Assembly (NCBI GenBank): GCA_022842625.1
Contig: JALHPG010000001.1
Location: 1 to 64,000, forward strand
Direction: 5' to 3'
Source of the DNA: Bacteroidia bacterium
Lineage (GTDB): Bacteria; Bacteroidota; Bacteroidia; B-17B0; Aurantibacillaceae
Length of the DNA stretch: 64,000 nt
Position 1 is the stretch's first letter; every line of letters begins with the position of its first letter. Positions 32,711 through 46,033 of the stretch are shown here, one piece after another. A program made the position numbers and the translations under genes. Below the pieces are notes generated by a model. It ran no database searches. It was not told where the DNA came from and worked only from the letters and a program-made list of their open reading frames with translations.

Positions 32711-32773
32711 ATGAAAAATATTAATGTAAATAAAATGTGGTGGTGCTTCGCAAATGATCTTGTGAACAGCTAA
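32711..32773 (+). CDS. trpL: trp operon leader peptide MKNINVNKMWWCFANDLVNS
   Basis: 20-codon ORF with tandem TGG TGG, followed by antiterminator/terminator and trpE. Confidence 0.9.
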   Translation: MKNINVNKMWWCFANDLVNS

Positions 32774-32831
32774 ATTTATATTTATCTAAGGCATATTACA
32801 AAGCCCGCTGTTCCATTACAGCGGGCTTTTT
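32764..32831 (+). promoter_or_regulatory. trp attenuator: antiterminator GAACAGC(32764-32770)/GCTGTTC(32807-32813) versus terminator AAAGCCCGCTG(32800-32810)/CAGCGGGCTTT(32819-32829)
   Basis: Mutually exclusive stems read directly from sequence; T-run after the terminator. Confidence 0.88.
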
Positions 32832-39299: not shown

Positions 39300-40290
39300 T
39301 TCAGTAACAGAAAATCAGCACTCGGCATTAATAAACAAGCTGACAGAAAATAAATTTTCAATTAACGAAGTAAACACACAACTCGAAAAGTATTTAGTGT
39401 GCATAGGAAAAAACGAAATCGATATCCGCGAAATTGGTCACCTGCCGGGTATTAAAGATGTTCATATTGTTTCGGATAGTTATAAACTTGTAAGTAAAAA
39501 ATGGAAGGTAAAGGATACAAGTATTGATCTAGGCAATAATGTTATTATTGGAAAAGAAGATCCAACCATCATGGCCGGACCCTGTTCTGTTGAAAGTGAA
39601 GAGCAAATTGATAAGATCATCGAACACCTCATCGACCAGGATATTAAAATTATAAGAGGCGGTGTTTTTAAACCAAGAAGCTCTCCTTATGCCTTTAGAG
39701 GCTTAGGCATTGATGGTTTAAAAATGATGTACGAAAAATGCAAACCTCACAACATTAAAATTATTACAGAAGTAATGCAGGTTTCACAAATAGAAGAGAT
39801 GCTTCCTTTTGTAGATGTTTTTCAAGTAGGTGCCAGAAACTCACAAAACTTTAATTTACTGGATGCGTTAGGAGAAATTGATAAACCCGTGTTATTAAAA
39901 AGAGGTGTAAGTGGCACCATTGAAGAATTACTCTCATCGGCCGAATATGTATTTAGCAAAGGCAATGAAAAATTAATTTTATGTGAACGCGGCATCCGAA
40001 CGTTTGAAACGGCTTACAGAAATACCTTTGATATTAATGCTATTCAAGTATTAAAAGAAAAAACACATTTACCTGTAATTGCAGATCCTTCGCATGGCGT
40101 AGGTATTCGCTCGTTTGTTCCAAAACTTGCATTATCTGCCTTATTAAGCGGTGCTGATGGAATTATTTATGAGGTGCATGATAAACCTGAAGAGGCGTTT
40201 TCTGATGGACAACAAACTCTAAATTTTATGGAGTCGGCAAAGCTTATTGAAAAAATAAAATTACTTTATCGCTCATCTATTTTTAATTAA
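39280..40290 (+). CDS. aroF: 3-deoxy-7-phosphoheptulonate synthase with N-terminal ferredoxin-like regulatory domain
   Basis: IMAGPCSVESEEQ, GVFKPRSSPYAFRGLG, LLKRGVSGTIEE, VIADPSHGVG; overlaps trpA by 20 nt. Confidence 0.94.
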   Translation: MIIQLNNSVTENQHSALINKLTENKFSINEVNTQLEKYLVCIGKNEIDIREIGHLPGIKDVHIVSDSYKLVSKKWKVKDTSIDLGNNVIIGKEDPTIMAGPCSVESEEQIDKIIEHLIDQDIKIIRGGVFKPRSSPYAFRGLGIDGLKMMYEKCKPHNIKIITEVMQVSQIEEMLPFVDVFQVGARNSQNFNLLDALGEIDKPVLLKRGVSGTIEELLSSAEYVFSKGNEKLILCERGIRTFETAYRNTFDINAIQVLKEKTHLPVIADPSHGVGIRSFVPKLALSALLSGADGIIYEVHDKPEEAFSDGQQTLNFMESAKLIEKIKLLYRSSIFN

Positions 40291-40368: not shown

Positions 40369-40376
40369 TACATTTG
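40369..40376 (+). promoter_or_regulatory. TAnnTTTG -7-like promoter box (TACATTTG)
   Basis: About 22 nt before the first Phe/Asn leader ATG. Confidence 0.45.
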
Positions 40377-40398: not shown

Positions 40399-40449
40399 AT
40401 GAAAACATTAAACAATAACTTCTTTTATTTCTTCAACAATATCAGTTGA
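40399..40449 (+). CDS. leader peptide 1: MKTLNNNFFYFFNNIS
   Basis: ATG AAA ACA TTA AAC AAT AAC TTC TTT TAT TTC TTC AAC AAT ATC AGT TGA, upstream of an intrinsic terminator and asnA/pheA. Confidence 0.88.
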   Translation: MKTLNNNFFYFFNNIS

Positions 40450-40453
40450 AGCA

Positions 40454-40510
40454 GGAAGTCTATTGTATAAAATAATTACAAAAAGCCTTCCATAACGGAA
40501 GGCTTTTTTT
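40454..40510 (+). promoter_or_regulatory. attenuator 1: antiterminator GGAAGTC(40454-40460)/GCCTTCC(40485-40491) versus terminator GCCTTCC/GGAAGGC(40497-40503)+T7
   Basis: Alternative stems read from sequence (antiterminator has one mismatch). Confidence 0.8.
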
Positions 40511-40529
40511 ATGCTTAAAAATTAAAAAT

Positions 40530-40574
40530 ATGAAAATGAATTTTAATAATAATTTTTTTTATCCCTCACCCTGA
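40530..40574 (+). CDS. leader peptide 2: MKMNFNNNFFYPSP
   Basis: ATG AAA ATG AAT TTT AAT AAT AAT TTT TTT TAT CCC TCA CCC TGA, upstream of a second intrinsic terminator. Confidence 0.83.
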   Translation: MKMNFNNNFFYPSP

Positions 40575-40630
40575 GGCATGGTCTACTATTACCCCTAGTT
40601 GAGCCCTGCCTTTTAAGCAGGGCTTTTTTT
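40575..40630 (+). promoter_or_regulatory. attenuator 2: antiterminator GGCATGGT(40575-40582)/GCCCTGCC(40603-40610) versus terminator AGCCCTGC(40602-40609)/GCAGGGCT(40617-40624)+T-run
   Basis: Alternative stems read from sequence; antiterminator has one mismatch and one G-U. Confidence 0.75.
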
Positions 40631-40669
40631 ATGCGAAAAATTAACAGAATAAATAAAAAATCAAAAAAC

Positions 40670-41710
40670 ATGAAAACAATTGAATTACAAAAAACACAGT
40701 ATCGATCCTTATTGGATGAATTAGAAACAGAAAAAGCAATTTCATTGGTGAAATCTTATTTCGAAAAAAACCTCTCAAGTAGCTTAAACTTAATAAAAGT
40801 AGAAGCTCCCTTATTGGTTAAAAAAGGTACAGGAATTAACGACGACTTAAATGGCATTGAAAATGCCGTATCAGTTAAAGTAAAAGAAATGCCGGATCAA
40901 GCAGTTGAAATAGTACATTCATTAGCAAAATGGAAACGCTCAAAACTCGCGCGGTTAAAGGCACACGCAGGAATAGGTTTATACACTAACATGAAAGCCT
41001 TAAGACCTGATGAAGATCTATCAGCCGTTCACAGTGTTTATGTTGATCAATGGGATTGGGAAAAAGTGATCTTATTAAACAACAGAAACCTTACTTATTT
41101 AGAACACATTGTAAGCGCTATTTACAAAGGTATAATTGAAACTGAAAGGTATATTGCATCTGTTTTTCCCGCAATAAAACCTTATTTGCCAAATTCAATT
41201 TCATTTATTCATTCAGAGGATCTTCAAAAATTATATCCGTCACTTAGTCCAAAAGAAAGAGAGAATGAGATATGCAAACAAAAAGGTGCAGTATTTATTA
41301 TTGGCATTGGTGGCGATCTGGCAGATGGAAAAAAGCACGATGGAAGAGCTCCGGATTATGACGATTGGATCACAGAAACATCAAGTGGAAAAAGAGGATT
41401 AAACGGTGATATTTTAGTTTGGAATAAAGTTTTAGGAAGAGCCTTTGAAATTTCCTCAATGGGAATTAGAGTTAGTGCCGAATCACTAAAAGAACAATTG
41501 TATTTAAGCGAAGCAGAAGATCGTTTGAAGTTAGATTGGCACCAACAATTAATTAACGGAGAATTACCCTACACTATTGGAGGCGGCATTGGCCAATCGA
41601 GGTTAGTAATGTTACTGCTACAAAAAAAACACATTGGCGAAGTGCAAAGTAGTATTTGGCCAAATGAATTAATTAATGATCTAAAAAAACAAAACATAAA
41701 CTTATTATAA
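40670..41710 (+). CDS. asnA: aspartate-ammonia ligase (asparagine synthetase A)
   Basis: VVHSLAKWKR-like block, GLYTNMKALRPDEDLSAVHSVYVDQWDWEKV, RAPDYDDW, LNGDILVWN, SSMGIRV, TIGGGIGQSRL. Confidence 0.96.
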   Translation: MKTIELQKTQYRSLLDELETEKAISLVKSYFEKNLSSSLNLIKVEAPLLVKKGTGINDDLNGIENAVSVKVKEMPDQAVEIVHSLAKWKRSKLARLKAHAGIGLYTNMKALRPDEDLSAVHSVYVDQWDWEKVILLNNRNLTYLEHIVSAIYKGIIETERYIASVFPAIKPYLPNSISFIHSEDLQKLYPSLSPKERENEICKQKGAVFIIGIGGDLADGKKHDGRAPDYDDWITETSSGKRGLNGDILVWNKVLGRAFEISSMGIRVSAESLKEQLYLSEAEDRLKLDWHQQLINGELPYTIGGGIGQSRLVMLLLQKKHIGEVQSSIWPNELINDLKKQNINLL

Positions 41711-41711
41711 T

Positions 41712-42581
41712 ATGAGAAACCATTTAATAGCCATCCAAGGCTCAGTAGCATCGTTTCATGATCTAGCAGCAAAAAAATATTTCGGCGAAGAAGTCTCAAC
41801 TTTAGAATGCGGTTCGTTTAAAGAAGTCTGCGATAAAATAGCCAACAATAAAGTCGACTATGGTATTATTGCAATAGAGAATAAAATTGCAGGAAGCATC
41901 TTATTAAACTATCAGTTAATAGAAACGTATGACCTAAAAATAATTGGTGAAATTTATTTACCAATTGAGTTAAAGCTCTTGGCTAAACCCGGTGCTAAAC
42001 TAAAAGATATAACTGAAATAATTTCGCATCCGATGGCCTTAGGCCAAAGTCAAGCCTTTCTTTCACAACATGAAAACATTGTTGTTACTGAATACAAAGA
42101 CACGGCATCGTGTGCAAAATTAGTGTCTGAAGACACTTCAGGAAAACTCTCAGTTATTGGAGGGCCTGCAATTGCTGGGCAATATAATTTGGAAGTGATA
42201 GTTGAAAATGTCAGTGATATAAGTCAAAACTTCACCCGTTTTTATATTTTAAGTAAAGGCGAAGATTATGTTAGCGATCCCAATAAGGCATCTGTAACCT
42301 TGCAAACAAATAACGAACCAGGGAAACTGTGTGATGTGCTAGTAATTCTAAAAAAACACAACTTAAATTTAACTAAAATTCAGAGCGTTCCCATTCCAAA
42401 TAATTCAAACGCTTATTCGTTTCATTTAGATATTGAGTTTGAGTATAAAGATCAATTTGAAAAAACTATTAATGATTTAAAAAAAGAAATTCACTATATA
42501 AAAATATTGGGCATTTATAAAACTGAAAATAAAAGAACAACTGAAAAAAATAAATTGATCCTTCAAAACCATTTAAATTAA
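41712..42581 (+). CDS. pheA: prephenate dehydratase with C-terminal ACT domain
   Basis: IQGSVASFHDLAA, DYGIIAIENKIAGSI, ISHPMALGQ, NFTRFYIL, LQTNNEPGKLCDVL. Confidence 0.93.
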   Translation: MRNHLIAIQGSVASFHDLAAKKYFGEEVSTLECGSFKEVCDKIANNKVDYGIIAIENKIAGSILLNYQLIETYDLKIIGEIYLPIELKLLAKPGAKLKDITEIISHPMALGQSQAFLSQHENIVVTEYKDTASCAKLVSEDTSGKLSVIGGPAIAGQYNLEVIVENVSDISQNFTRFYILSKGEDYVSDPNKASVTLQTNNEPGKLCDVLVILKKHNLNLTKIQSVPIPNNSNAYSFHLDIEFEYKDQFEKTINDLKKEIHYIKILGIYKTENKRTTEKNKLILQNHLN

Positions 42582-43672
42582 TGAAAACAACATTAGAAGA
42601 GATAAGAACCGAGATCGTAAATGATAATCCTTTGCTAAAAAAAGGACTAATTATTGCAGGGCCCTGCAGTGCAGAAAGTGAAGATCAACTGATCAAAACC
42701 GCAATTGAATTGGCACAATTAGGAAAAACAGATGTGTTAAGGGCCGGCATATGGAAACCAAGAACCAATCCGGGTGGCTTTGAAGGAGTTGGTACTAAAG
42801 GCTTGTCGTGGTTATTAAATGCCAAACGAATTACAAATTTAAAAACTGCTGTAGAGGTGGCAACATCCAAACACGTTGAGGATGCATTAAGTTTTGATGT
42901 AGATGTTTTATGGGTGGGGGCACGTACAACCGTTAATCCTTTTAGCGTTCAGCAAATTTCTGATGCTCTTAAAGGAACAGATCAAACTGTACTGATCAAA
43001 AACCCGGTAAATCCCGATATAAAATTATGGATAGGCGCCATTGAACGTTTACAAAAATCAGGAATAAAAAAAATAGGTCTTATCCATAGGGGCTTTTCCT
43101 CTTATGGCAATACCGAATATAGAAACACACCTATGTGGCAAATTCCTATTGAAATGAAACGCTTGTTTCCCGAGCTGCCTATGATCTGTGATCCTTCGCA
43201 TATTTGCGGCAACACACATGGATTATTAGCTGTCTCACAAAAAAGTGTCAATTTAGATTATGACGGCCTGATCATAGAAACACACTATGCTCCCGAAATA
43301 GCTTTAACCGATAAAGGTCAACAAATAACGCCACAGGAATTATCTGATCTATTAGATAAATTGATCATAAAAAAATCCAGATCCGATGAAGAAACTTTTT
43401 TAAAACCGTTAGAGAATCTGCGCGAACAAATTAATGATCTGGATGAGGAGTTAATTTCATTGATATCTAACAGAATGAAAATTGCGAAAGAAATTGGCAC
43501 GATAAAGAAAAAAAGTAATATAACGGTCTTGCAATCTTCAAGGTATAATGAAATTTTAGAACGTTTAAATAAAAAAGGAGAAAAATTAGGGTTAAGCGAG
43601 CAATTTATAAGATCTTATATGGAGGCAATTCATATAGAAAGCATTCGAACGCAAAACATAATTGGTCAATAA
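42581..43672 (+). CDS. bifunctional DAHP synthase / chorismate mutase (type II)
   Basis: LIIAGPCSAESEDQ, RAGIWKPRTNPGGFEG, CDPSHICG; C-terminal LREQINDLDEELISLISNRMKIAKEIG. Confidence 0.94.
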   Translation: MKTTLEEIRTEIVNDNPLLKKGLIIAGPCSAESEDQLIKTAIELAQLGKTDVLRAGIWKPRTNPGGFEGVGTKGLSWLLNAKRITNLKTAVEVATSKHVEDALSFDVDVLWVGARTTVNPFSVQQISDALKGTDQTVLIKNPVNPDIKLWIGAIERLQKSGIKKIGLIHRGFSSYGNTEYRNTPMWQIPIEMKRLFPELPMICDPSHICGNTHGLLAVSQKSVNLDYDGLIIETHYAPEIALTDKGQQITPQELSDLLDKLIIKKSRSDEETFLKPLENLREQINDLDEELISLISNRMKIAKEIGTIKKKSNITVLQSSRYNEILERLNKKGEKLGLSEQFIRSYMEAIHIESIRTQNIIGQ

Positions 43673-43709
43673 ATTACTTTAAATCATTTATTTTCATTTA
43701 ACTTTGGGT

Positions 43710-44771
43710 ATGTATTTAATTAAATCAAATGGCTACGATGTAGAAATTGGAATAAAAATTTTTAAATCCATTTCTTCATTAATTACTAAAAAAAAATATT
43801 CCTCGCATTTTATAATTTGCGATGAAAACACATTTCAGTTTTGTTTGCCAAATTTAATAAGCAACTGCCCTAAATTGCGCGAAGCTCATATTATAGAATT
43901 AGAAAGCGGTGAGGCAAGCAAGTCGCTTGAATTTAGTGCACATGTATGGCAAACACTTATAGAAAATAAAGCAGATAAAAATTCTTTGGTTGTTAATTTA
44001 GGTGGCGGCGTAGTAAGTGACTTAGGTGGTTTTTGCGCTTCAACCTATAAACGTGGCATTGATTTTATTAATATACCAACCACTCTGCTTTCAATGGCAG
44101 ACGCAAGCGTTGGCGGAAAAACAGGAATTGATTTTTCAGGCTTGAAAAATTCTATAGGCACTTTTACCCAGCCTAAAGGAGTATTTATTGATCCGGATTT
44201 TTTAGAAACGCTTCCTAGTCGCCACTTTCAAAACGGTTTAGCTGAGATCTTTAAAATAGCTCTTATTTGTGATAAAAAATTCTGGAACGAATTAAAAACT
44301 GCAGATGTTAAGGTTGCTGCCAAGGACATAATTGCAAAAGGAGTAGCTCTAAAAAATAAAATAGTTTCAAAAGATCCTTTTGATAATGGTATTAGAAAAA
44401 CCTTAAACTTTGGACATACCATTGGCCATGCAATAGAATCAATGCTCTTGGGAAGCAGTAATGAATTATTACACGGCGAAGCAATTGTAATTGGTATGTT
44501 GATCGAAAGTCATTTGTCCTACCAAAAAAAATTATTTTCAAAAAATGAATTAGATGAGGTATTAAATGTTTTTAAAAATGTTTTTCAACCAAATAAAATT
44601 AATGATCTTAATTTGGATTCTATTTTTGAATTGATGAAAAATGATAAAAAGTCAACAAACAATAAATTTCAATTCGCATTGATCGATAAGATCGGCTCTT
44701 GTAAATTTGATTTAGCTGTAAGCGACCTGCAAATTAAAAAAGCAATTGAATTTTATAACACCTCTTTTTAA
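43710..44771 (+). CDS. aroB: 3-dehydroquinate synthase
   Basis: LVVNLGGGVVSDLGGFCASTYKRGIDFINIPTTLLSMADASVGGKTGID; ATG 43710 preferred to TTG 43704. Confidence 0.97.
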   Translation: MYLIKSNGYDVEIGIKIFKSISSLITKKKYSSHFIICDENTFQFCLPNLISNCPKLREAHIIELESGEASKSLEFSAHVWQTLIENKADKNSLVVNLGGGVVSDLGGFCASTYKRGIDFINIPTTLLSMADASVGGKTGIDFSGLKNSIGTFTQPKGVFIDPDFLETLPSRHFQNGLAEIFKIALICDKKFWNELKTADVKVAAKDIIAKGVALKNKIVSKDPFDNGIRKTLNFGHTIGHAIESMLLGSSNELLHGEAIVIGMLIESHLSYQKKLFSKNELDEVLNVFKNVFQPNKINDLNLDSIFELMKNDKKSTNNKFQFALIDKIGSCKFDLAVSDLQIKKAIEFYNTSF

Positions 44772-46033
44772 TGTTAGTACTTTCTGCTCCCAATAAAATA
44801 GTTAATACAACCATTAAACTTACGGGCTCAAAAAGCATAAATAACCGTTTATTAGTTTTAAACGAAGTACTTGATCTTGATCTACATTTTCAAAACAGAT
44901 CAACTTCTGAAGACACCCTGCTTTTACAAAATGCACTTTTAAGTATAAAAGATAAAACAAGTGCCACTATTGATGTTCACCATGCCGGAACAGACATGCG
45001 TTTTTTAACCGCCTATTTATCTACAAAAAAAGGCGAATGGATTTTAACCGGCTCTGAACGTATGAAGGAACGTCCGATCGGAGATCTTGTTAGGGCCTTA
45101 AGATCTTTAGGCGCCGAAATTACATTTTTGGAAAAAGAAAATTTTCCGCCTCTAAAAATATCAGGTAAAACTTTAGAGGGCGGTAAAATAGAAATTGATG
45201 GAAGTGTTAGCAGTCAATTTATTTCGGCTTTATTATTAATTGCCCCTACTTTTGAAAATGGCTTAGAGCTAACTTTAAAAAACGATATAGTTTCCTGGCC
45301 ATATATTCAAATGACCTTAGATGCTTTATCTGAATTTGGATTAAATGTTTCAACCGTTTTAAATACGATCAAAATTTCAAAAGCAACTACAAAAAATGCT
45401 AAGGGTAAAAGTTTTGAGGTGGAATCAGATTGGTCATCGGCATCGTATTGGTTTAGCATTGTTGCATTAAGTAAAAATGCAGAAATAAAATTAACCGGTT
45501 TAAAAGACAGCTCCTCACAAGCAGATTCTGTTTTACCTCAACTCTACAAACAACTAGGGGTTAACACCCAATTTAAAAACAATGAGCTGGTTCTTTCAAA
45601 AAACGAAGAAAAGATCTCAGGGTTTGAATACGATTTTACAAATTGTCCGGATATAGCGCAAACTATCGCTGTTACATGTTTTGGCTTAGGAATAAAAGCA
45701 AAATTAACTGGACTAAAAACTTTAAAACTGAAAGAAAGCGATAGAATTGTTGCTTTAAAAACAGAATTAGAAAAATTTGGGGCTATTGTGGAAATAACAG
45801 ATAACTCAATTGGGATAAAAGATTCAGGATACAAGACACAAGACTCCCCAATTGAGTCTAACGACTTACTACTAGAAACCTATAACGATCACCGCATGGC
45901 CATGAGTTTTGCCCCACTGGCACTGCGTTACGAGCAACTTTTCATCCAAAACTCCGAAGTGGTTACTAAATCTTATCCTTTATTTTGGGAAGATTTGAAA
46001 TCAGTAGGTTTTAGTGTAAATTTGCAGCCATAA
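44771..46033 (+). CDS. aroA: 3-phosphoshikimate 1-carboxyvinyltransferase (EPSP synthase)
   Basis: GSKSINNRLLVL, HAGTDMRFLTAYLS, SSQFISALLL, LKESDRI, YNDHRMAMSFAPLAL. Confidence 0.96.
   Translation: MLVLSAPNKIVNTTIKLTGSKSINNRLLVLNEVLDLDLHFQNRSTSEDTLLLQNALLSIKDKTSATIDVHHAGTDMRFLTAYLSTKKGEWILTGSERMKERPIGDLVRALRSLGAEITFLEKENFPPLKISGKTLEGGKIEIDGSVSSQFISALLLIAPTFENGLELTLKNDIVSWPYIQMTLDALSEFGLNVSTVLNTIKISKATTKNAKGKSFEVESDWSSASYWFSIVALSKNAEIKLTGLKDSSSQADSVLPQLYKQLGVNTQFKNNELVLSKNEEKISGFEYDFTNCPDIAQTIAVTCFGLGIKAKLTGLKTLKLKESDRIVALKTELEKFGAIVEITDNSIGIKDSGYKTQDSPIESNDLLLETYNDHRMAMSFAPLALRYEQLFIQNSEVVTKSYPLFWEDLKSVGFSVNLQP
45804..45857. repeat. 11-bp perfect inverted repeat flanking a 32-nt insert inside aroA
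   Basis: ACTCAATTGGG (45804-45814) ... CCCAATTGAGT (45847-45857). Confidence 0.8.

Follow-up and report, generated by a model that had tools for sequence, protein, structure and literature searches.

In the window (the whole 64,000-nucleotide stretch of Bacteroidia DNA that was analyzed), the asnA-pheA-aro operon most likely has a 5′ leader with two serial ribosome-mediated transcription attenuators, each of them complete, an explanation to which we assign a probability of roughly 0.88. In each unit, a ribosome that translates the leader to its stop codon would come to lie over region 2, regions 3 and 4 would then pair, and RNA polymerase would terminate. When charged tRNA is low, the ribosome would instead stall at codons for Asn, Phe, or Tyr; region 2, left uncovered, could then pair with region 3, and RNA polymerase would read on. 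Because all three codon kinds occur in both leaders, running short of either Asn or Phe/Tyr should set both switches to readthrough, and because the switches lie in series, both would have to be passed. We infer ribosome stalling, termination in vivo, and a gain in stringency from the serial arrangement; that two attenuators in series would repress more steeply than one is what logic predicts.

Two leader units on one predicted transcript

The leader and the genes that follow it are laid out as below.

40369..40376, + strand: −7 element TACATTTG (Bacteroidota-type promoter, TTTG ... TAnnTTTG), located 30 nt 5′ of leader 1
40399..40449, + strand: leader ORF 1, MKTLNNNFFYFFNNIS (ATG 40399, TGA 40449)
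40454..40461, + strand: region 2 of unit 1 (GGAAGTCT), putative antiterminator 5′ arm, just 3′ of the leader 1 stop codon
40480..40508, + strand: terminator 1 (regions 3 and 4), 12 bp, −16.4 kcal/mol, followed by a T-run
40530..40574, + strand: leader ORF 2, MKMNFNNNFFYPSP (ATG 40530, TGA 40574)
40575..40581, + strand: region 2 of unit 2 (GGCATGG), putative antiterminator 5′ arm, pairing with its cognate region 3
40601..40625, + strand: terminator 2 (regions 3 and 4), 9 bp, −15.5 kcal/mol, followed by a T-run
40670..41710, + strand: asnA, aspartate--ammonia ligase (TIGR00669, 467 bits)
41712..42581, + strand: pheA, prephenate dehydratase, 1 nt after asnA
42581..43672, + strand: DAHP synthase fused to chorismate mutase
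43704..44771, + strand: aroB (TIGR01357)
44771..46033, + strand: aroA (TIGR01356)

The initial annotation had called two short ORFs, at 40399-40449 and 40530-40574, each with a terminator of its own. The ORFs lie at exactly these positions, and each is followed by its own hairpin and T-run (40480-40508 and 40601-40625), so that an intrinsic terminator stands between leader ORF and first gene. Both leaders are short translatable ORFs enriched in codons for the operon's product amino acids; they have the codon kinds N, F, and Y in common, in similar number, and these follow operon content (see below). The antiterminator arms that had been claimed along with them are indeed present, with the reservation that each pairing contains one internal mismatch (GGAAGuCU/AGcCUUCC and GGCAuGG/CCcUGCC). 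Taken alone, the window antiterminators are marginal (shuffle p = 0.05 and 0.16), and their support comes from relatives.

TTTG ... TAnnTTTG is the Bacteroidota promoter consensus; a sigma-70 promoter scan of the window was uninformative, as expected for this phylum. Only 21 nt separate unit 1 from unit 2 (15-32 nt in relatives), which leaves no room for a second promoter between them. As the sequence is laid out, both units are behind one putative Bacteroidota-type promoter and would share one transcript. The asnA start proposed by the ORF caller, 40631, was rejected because it sits in the terminator tail and homologues keep 40670, the ATG that is invariant across the homologue alignment.

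In Markov-1 simulations with the region's own composition, one leader-terminator unit arose in 8/4000 runs, two units arose in none of the 4000, and a unit with an N/F/Y-rich leader likewise arose in 0/4000. Across 195 kb of the contig, the only amino-acid-specific leader units were the window pair and a trp leader at 32711. This Trp leader (MKNINVNKMWWCFANDLVNS) and its terminator occupy 32711-32829, ahead of the upstream trp operon. The cut-off of the Rfam family Bacteroid-trp was reached nowhere in the window, the Trp leader region included.

Conservation and covariation of the tandem

Comparison with related loci shows that the units exist as such, that they are conserved, and that their competing arms covary. 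Both units were found at 12 further loci, 11 of them asnA loci and one a pheA locus (positional homologues of leader 1 are at L002, L003, L005, L006, L007, L034, L035, L059, L114, L125, L126, and L151). Three relatives with asnA-pheA (G074, G066, and G061), about 70-73% identical, carry both units, with leaders that combine N and F/Y codons (for example, MQKINNNNFCFFNYKD and MRTNNFNYNFYNYPP); in G066, a contig end cuts off part of leader 1. The family searches also yielded G051 and G065, while G398 and two Bacteroidales MAGs (L059 and L114) came from wider ones; all of these have asnA alone behind both units. asnA followed by pheA, again with both units, was found in G359, G501, and G507. Finally, a class-wide pheA search uncovered G198, in which a pheA-DAHPS operon without asnA has the two-unit leader MQKQLNNYFFFFNAMR plus MKRQTSTVFFYFFFIQP.

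Few homologues come from the window's own genus and family, most members of which have neither asnA nor pheA (each is present in 7/89 genomes of the family); the window organism is among the few exceptions, so the operon may have been kept, or acquired again, in a patchy manner. An order-wide search gave the same set of homologues as the family search, a phylum-wide asnA search added no tandems to those already found, and a DNA pattern for unit 1, applied across the class but too strict, gave one match. Most asnA genes across the phylum lack leaders. Among the homologues, leader 2 of L007 has no stop codon ahead of its terminator. A pheA gene 78% identical to that of the window (L150, in G250) has no leader, and asnA was not found in that genome, which we read as an apparent loss. 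The AsnA tree does not support one common origin of the tandem: the tandem loci are clustered without forming one clade, and well-supported branches force at least three changes, so that the cassette was likely lost, regained, or transferred together with the gene.

Across 11 representative loci, which like all comparative statistics here rest on few independent lineages (about 5-6), region 2 is predicted to pair more stably with region 3 of its own locus than with region 3 of other loci. This held for unit 1 (−10.9 within loci vs −8.3 kcal/mol across loci; p<2e-5, permutation) and for unit 2 (−8.8 vs −6.5 kcal/mol; p = 0.00012, permutation). We regard this swap test over representatives as the safer figure because kinship inflates counts and the region-2 arms were picked for complementarity. 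Counted directly, the unit 1 antiterminator has changes on both sides in 5/9 pairs (with the arm set by hand in L030, where region 2 lies far inside the ORF). Its covariation score is 0.258 vs 0.162 for shuffled controls; none of 500 shuffles scored as high, and slid registers all scored lower. The initial annotation had staked its reading on the conservation of leader codons and alternative pairings in relatives and on covariation of the alternative stems. Both bore it out: codons and pairings are kept and covary in several families, and the antiterminator arm covaries with the terminator arm (p≤0.00012 per unit).

Its suggestion that the shared NNNFFY core arose by duplication fared less well. 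Units have a mean identity of 0.64 to their positional counterparts vs 0.57 to the other unit, which speaks against a recent event, and the two units within one locus are 0.59 identical. Because positional counterparts are more alike than the two units, any duplication would predate these families. A duplication origin would be ancient at best, and on this comparison the shared codons of the two leaders reflect shared selection.

Leader codon content depends on operon content

Comparison among loci shows that the codon content of the leaders depends on which genes the operon holds. At asnA-alone loci, Asn makes up about 35-38% of the leaders, and Phe/Tyr only 11% of leader 1 and 1% of leader 2. 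At asnA+pheA loci, Asn content is the same and Phe/Tyr rises to 24-28%; a Phe/Tyr difference this large between the two groups arose in only 3/792 exact locus permutations. For ordinary pheA genes of other loci in the class, where a leader was found, it is a single one, in which Phe/Tyr accounts for 36% and Asn for 9%. In G198, which has the tandem scaffold without asnA, the leaders are of the Phe/Tyr kind and leader 2 is free of Asn. L125 is an outlier: its asnA leaders are poor in Phe/Tyr, and the gap between its asnA and pheA holds promoter-like sequence and a putative Phe/Tyr attenuator. A third Phe/Tyr-rich leader with a terminator is present in the asnA-pheA gap of L034, L125, and L126 (MNKSITYFFYYFFNFKN, MTTTFYNTYFFIYPKYRTER, and MKLKMTTYFFEYFFKYH), so that three attenuators are possible within one gene cluster.

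We consider the odds about even that the tandem scaffold is deeply conserved in Bacteroidota, that it stays serial because this makes the response to Asn shortage quantitatively different (sharper or wider), and that codon replacement re-codes it when the operon gains or loses genes, from Asn through Asn plus Phe/Tyr to Phe/Tyr. The tandem family offers a natural codon-swap series on a re-codable scaffold, in which both the contribution of the second attenuator and the evolutionary re-specification of switches could be studied.

It is possible, though on balance unlikely, that the two leaders respond differently, whether to mild and severe shortage or to Asn and Phe/Tyr, and that the tandem would widen the range of the response without steepening it. 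Consistent with such a division, leader 2 nearly always ends in Pro and is usually shorter, with C-terminal Pro codons that adjoin region 2 in most homologues, and at asnA-alone loci Phe is sometimes present in unit 1 and almost absent from unit 2. The tandem attenuators of the Salmonella mgtCBR operon also respond to different signals, and additively (PMC3641672). However, the window leaders share three codon kinds in similar number, which argues against such a division.

Predicted switching and relation to known attenuators

The behavior expected of two such same-signal switches was modeled with a co-transcriptional folding proxy, in which the RNA preceding region 4 was folded from the 3′ edge of a ribosome whose A site was placed at each leader codon. 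The predicted probability that region 3 is paired with upstream RNA averaged 0.87 over regulatory codons vs 0.06 at the stop codon in unit 1 (15 loci), and 0.80 vs 0.07 in unit 2 (13 loci). In 28/28 units, predicted antitermination was high with the A site on Asn/Phe/Tyr codons and dropped at the stop codon; the drop came at or just past the last N/F/Y codons and was stable for footprints of 10-16 nt. By computation and comparison, then, antiterminator and terminator would be mutually exclusive, and a ribosome that has reached the stop codon would cover the 5′ arm of the antiterminator.

A candidate 1:2 pause/anti-antiterminator hairpin (CCTCA/TGAGG) is present in window unit 2, but folds without a ribosome favor the 2:3 antiterminator in most loci, which suggests a tendency toward readthrough when the leader is not translated. 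The initial annotation had invoked the ribosome-mediated logic of the trp, phe, and his leaders. Comparison supports that logic well, apart from the pause-hairpin part of the trp/his systems: window-type leaders are predicted mostly to read through when no ribosome is present, unlike the textbook trp scheme.

It is decidedly doubtful that only one attenuator works and that the other unit, kept in sequence by chance, has decayed or acts as a constitutive terminator, such as one closing the upstream trp operon. Terminator 1 would in that case serve the trp-DAHPS operon, which ends upstream at 40290, and L021 and L030 retain unit 1 only; however, both units keep their codons and covarying antiterminators in several families, and leader 1 is separated from the trp operon by a promoter element. 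It is very improbable that the peptides act as small proteins in their own right or that the region is a riboswitch for a protein or metabolite, since the conserved short ORFs are conserved in composition only, which tracks the operon, and no Rfam family reached its cut-off.

The tandem attenuators are well supported by comparison as classical ribosome-mediated attenuation in an unusual arrangement, namely same-signal, multi-amino-acid, and in series. The ilvGMEDA leader reads Ile, Val, and Leu, amino acids of one pathway; it resembles the window in having several amino acids per leader and differs in being a single unit for one shared pathway. Rfam searches at gathering and relaxed thresholds gave sub-threshold matches only, probably from terminator hairpins. 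The window element scored 35.7 against the 55-bit cut-off of Phe_leader (RF01859) and 22.7 against the 49 bits of Bacteroid-trp (RF01692), and belongs to neither family. Like the enterobacterial pheA and trp leaders (RF01859 and RF00513), it has a leader peptide rich in the amino acids under control and an antiterminator opposed to an intrinsic terminator ahead of a biosynthetic operon; unlike them, it has two serial units, three amino acids, and two pathways. Bacteroid-trp is a predicted Bacteroidota Trp leader (PMC2864571) that shares phylum and kind of control with the window element, but has Trp codons and a single unit. The Lactococcus Leu/phe leader RF01743, listed in the same paper (PMC2864571), also combines several amino acids in one leader, but is a single unit. 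Salmonella mgtCBR has, like the window, two leader ORFs in one mRNA leader and attenuation-like control, but its signals are ATP and proline, it has no intrinsic terminators, and it controls a transport/virulence operon instead of a biosynthetic one (PMC3641672). The window leaders share codon kinds and have intrinsic terminators, and so fall outside the mgtCBR type. For Flavobacterium psychrophilum, a member of the window's phylum, leader-peptide attenuation of amino acid operons has been reported generically, in a main text that includes neither asparagine nor an attenuator pair (PMC9723704). Theory shows that adding regulatory codons to a single leader makes attenuation more sensitive (PMC1183508); we did not find serial attenuators in that work.

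In the literature searched, which included few subscription journals, we found no report of two same-signal serial leader-peptide attenuators with intrinsic terminators, nor of asparagine leaders of asnA. Bacteroidota mRNAs mostly lack Shine-Dalgarno sites. Tandem attenuation of the asnA-pheA-aro operon would imply that leader translation in Bacteroidota keeps pace with transcription closely enough for attenuation. Elsewhere in the phylum, one locus (L143, in G792) has a single, very Asn-rich leader upstream of asnA that ends in ...NANLNSNLNLNANNNAMTAGG and is followed by a terminator-like hairpin, which suggests that Asn attenuation may also occur outside the window's class.
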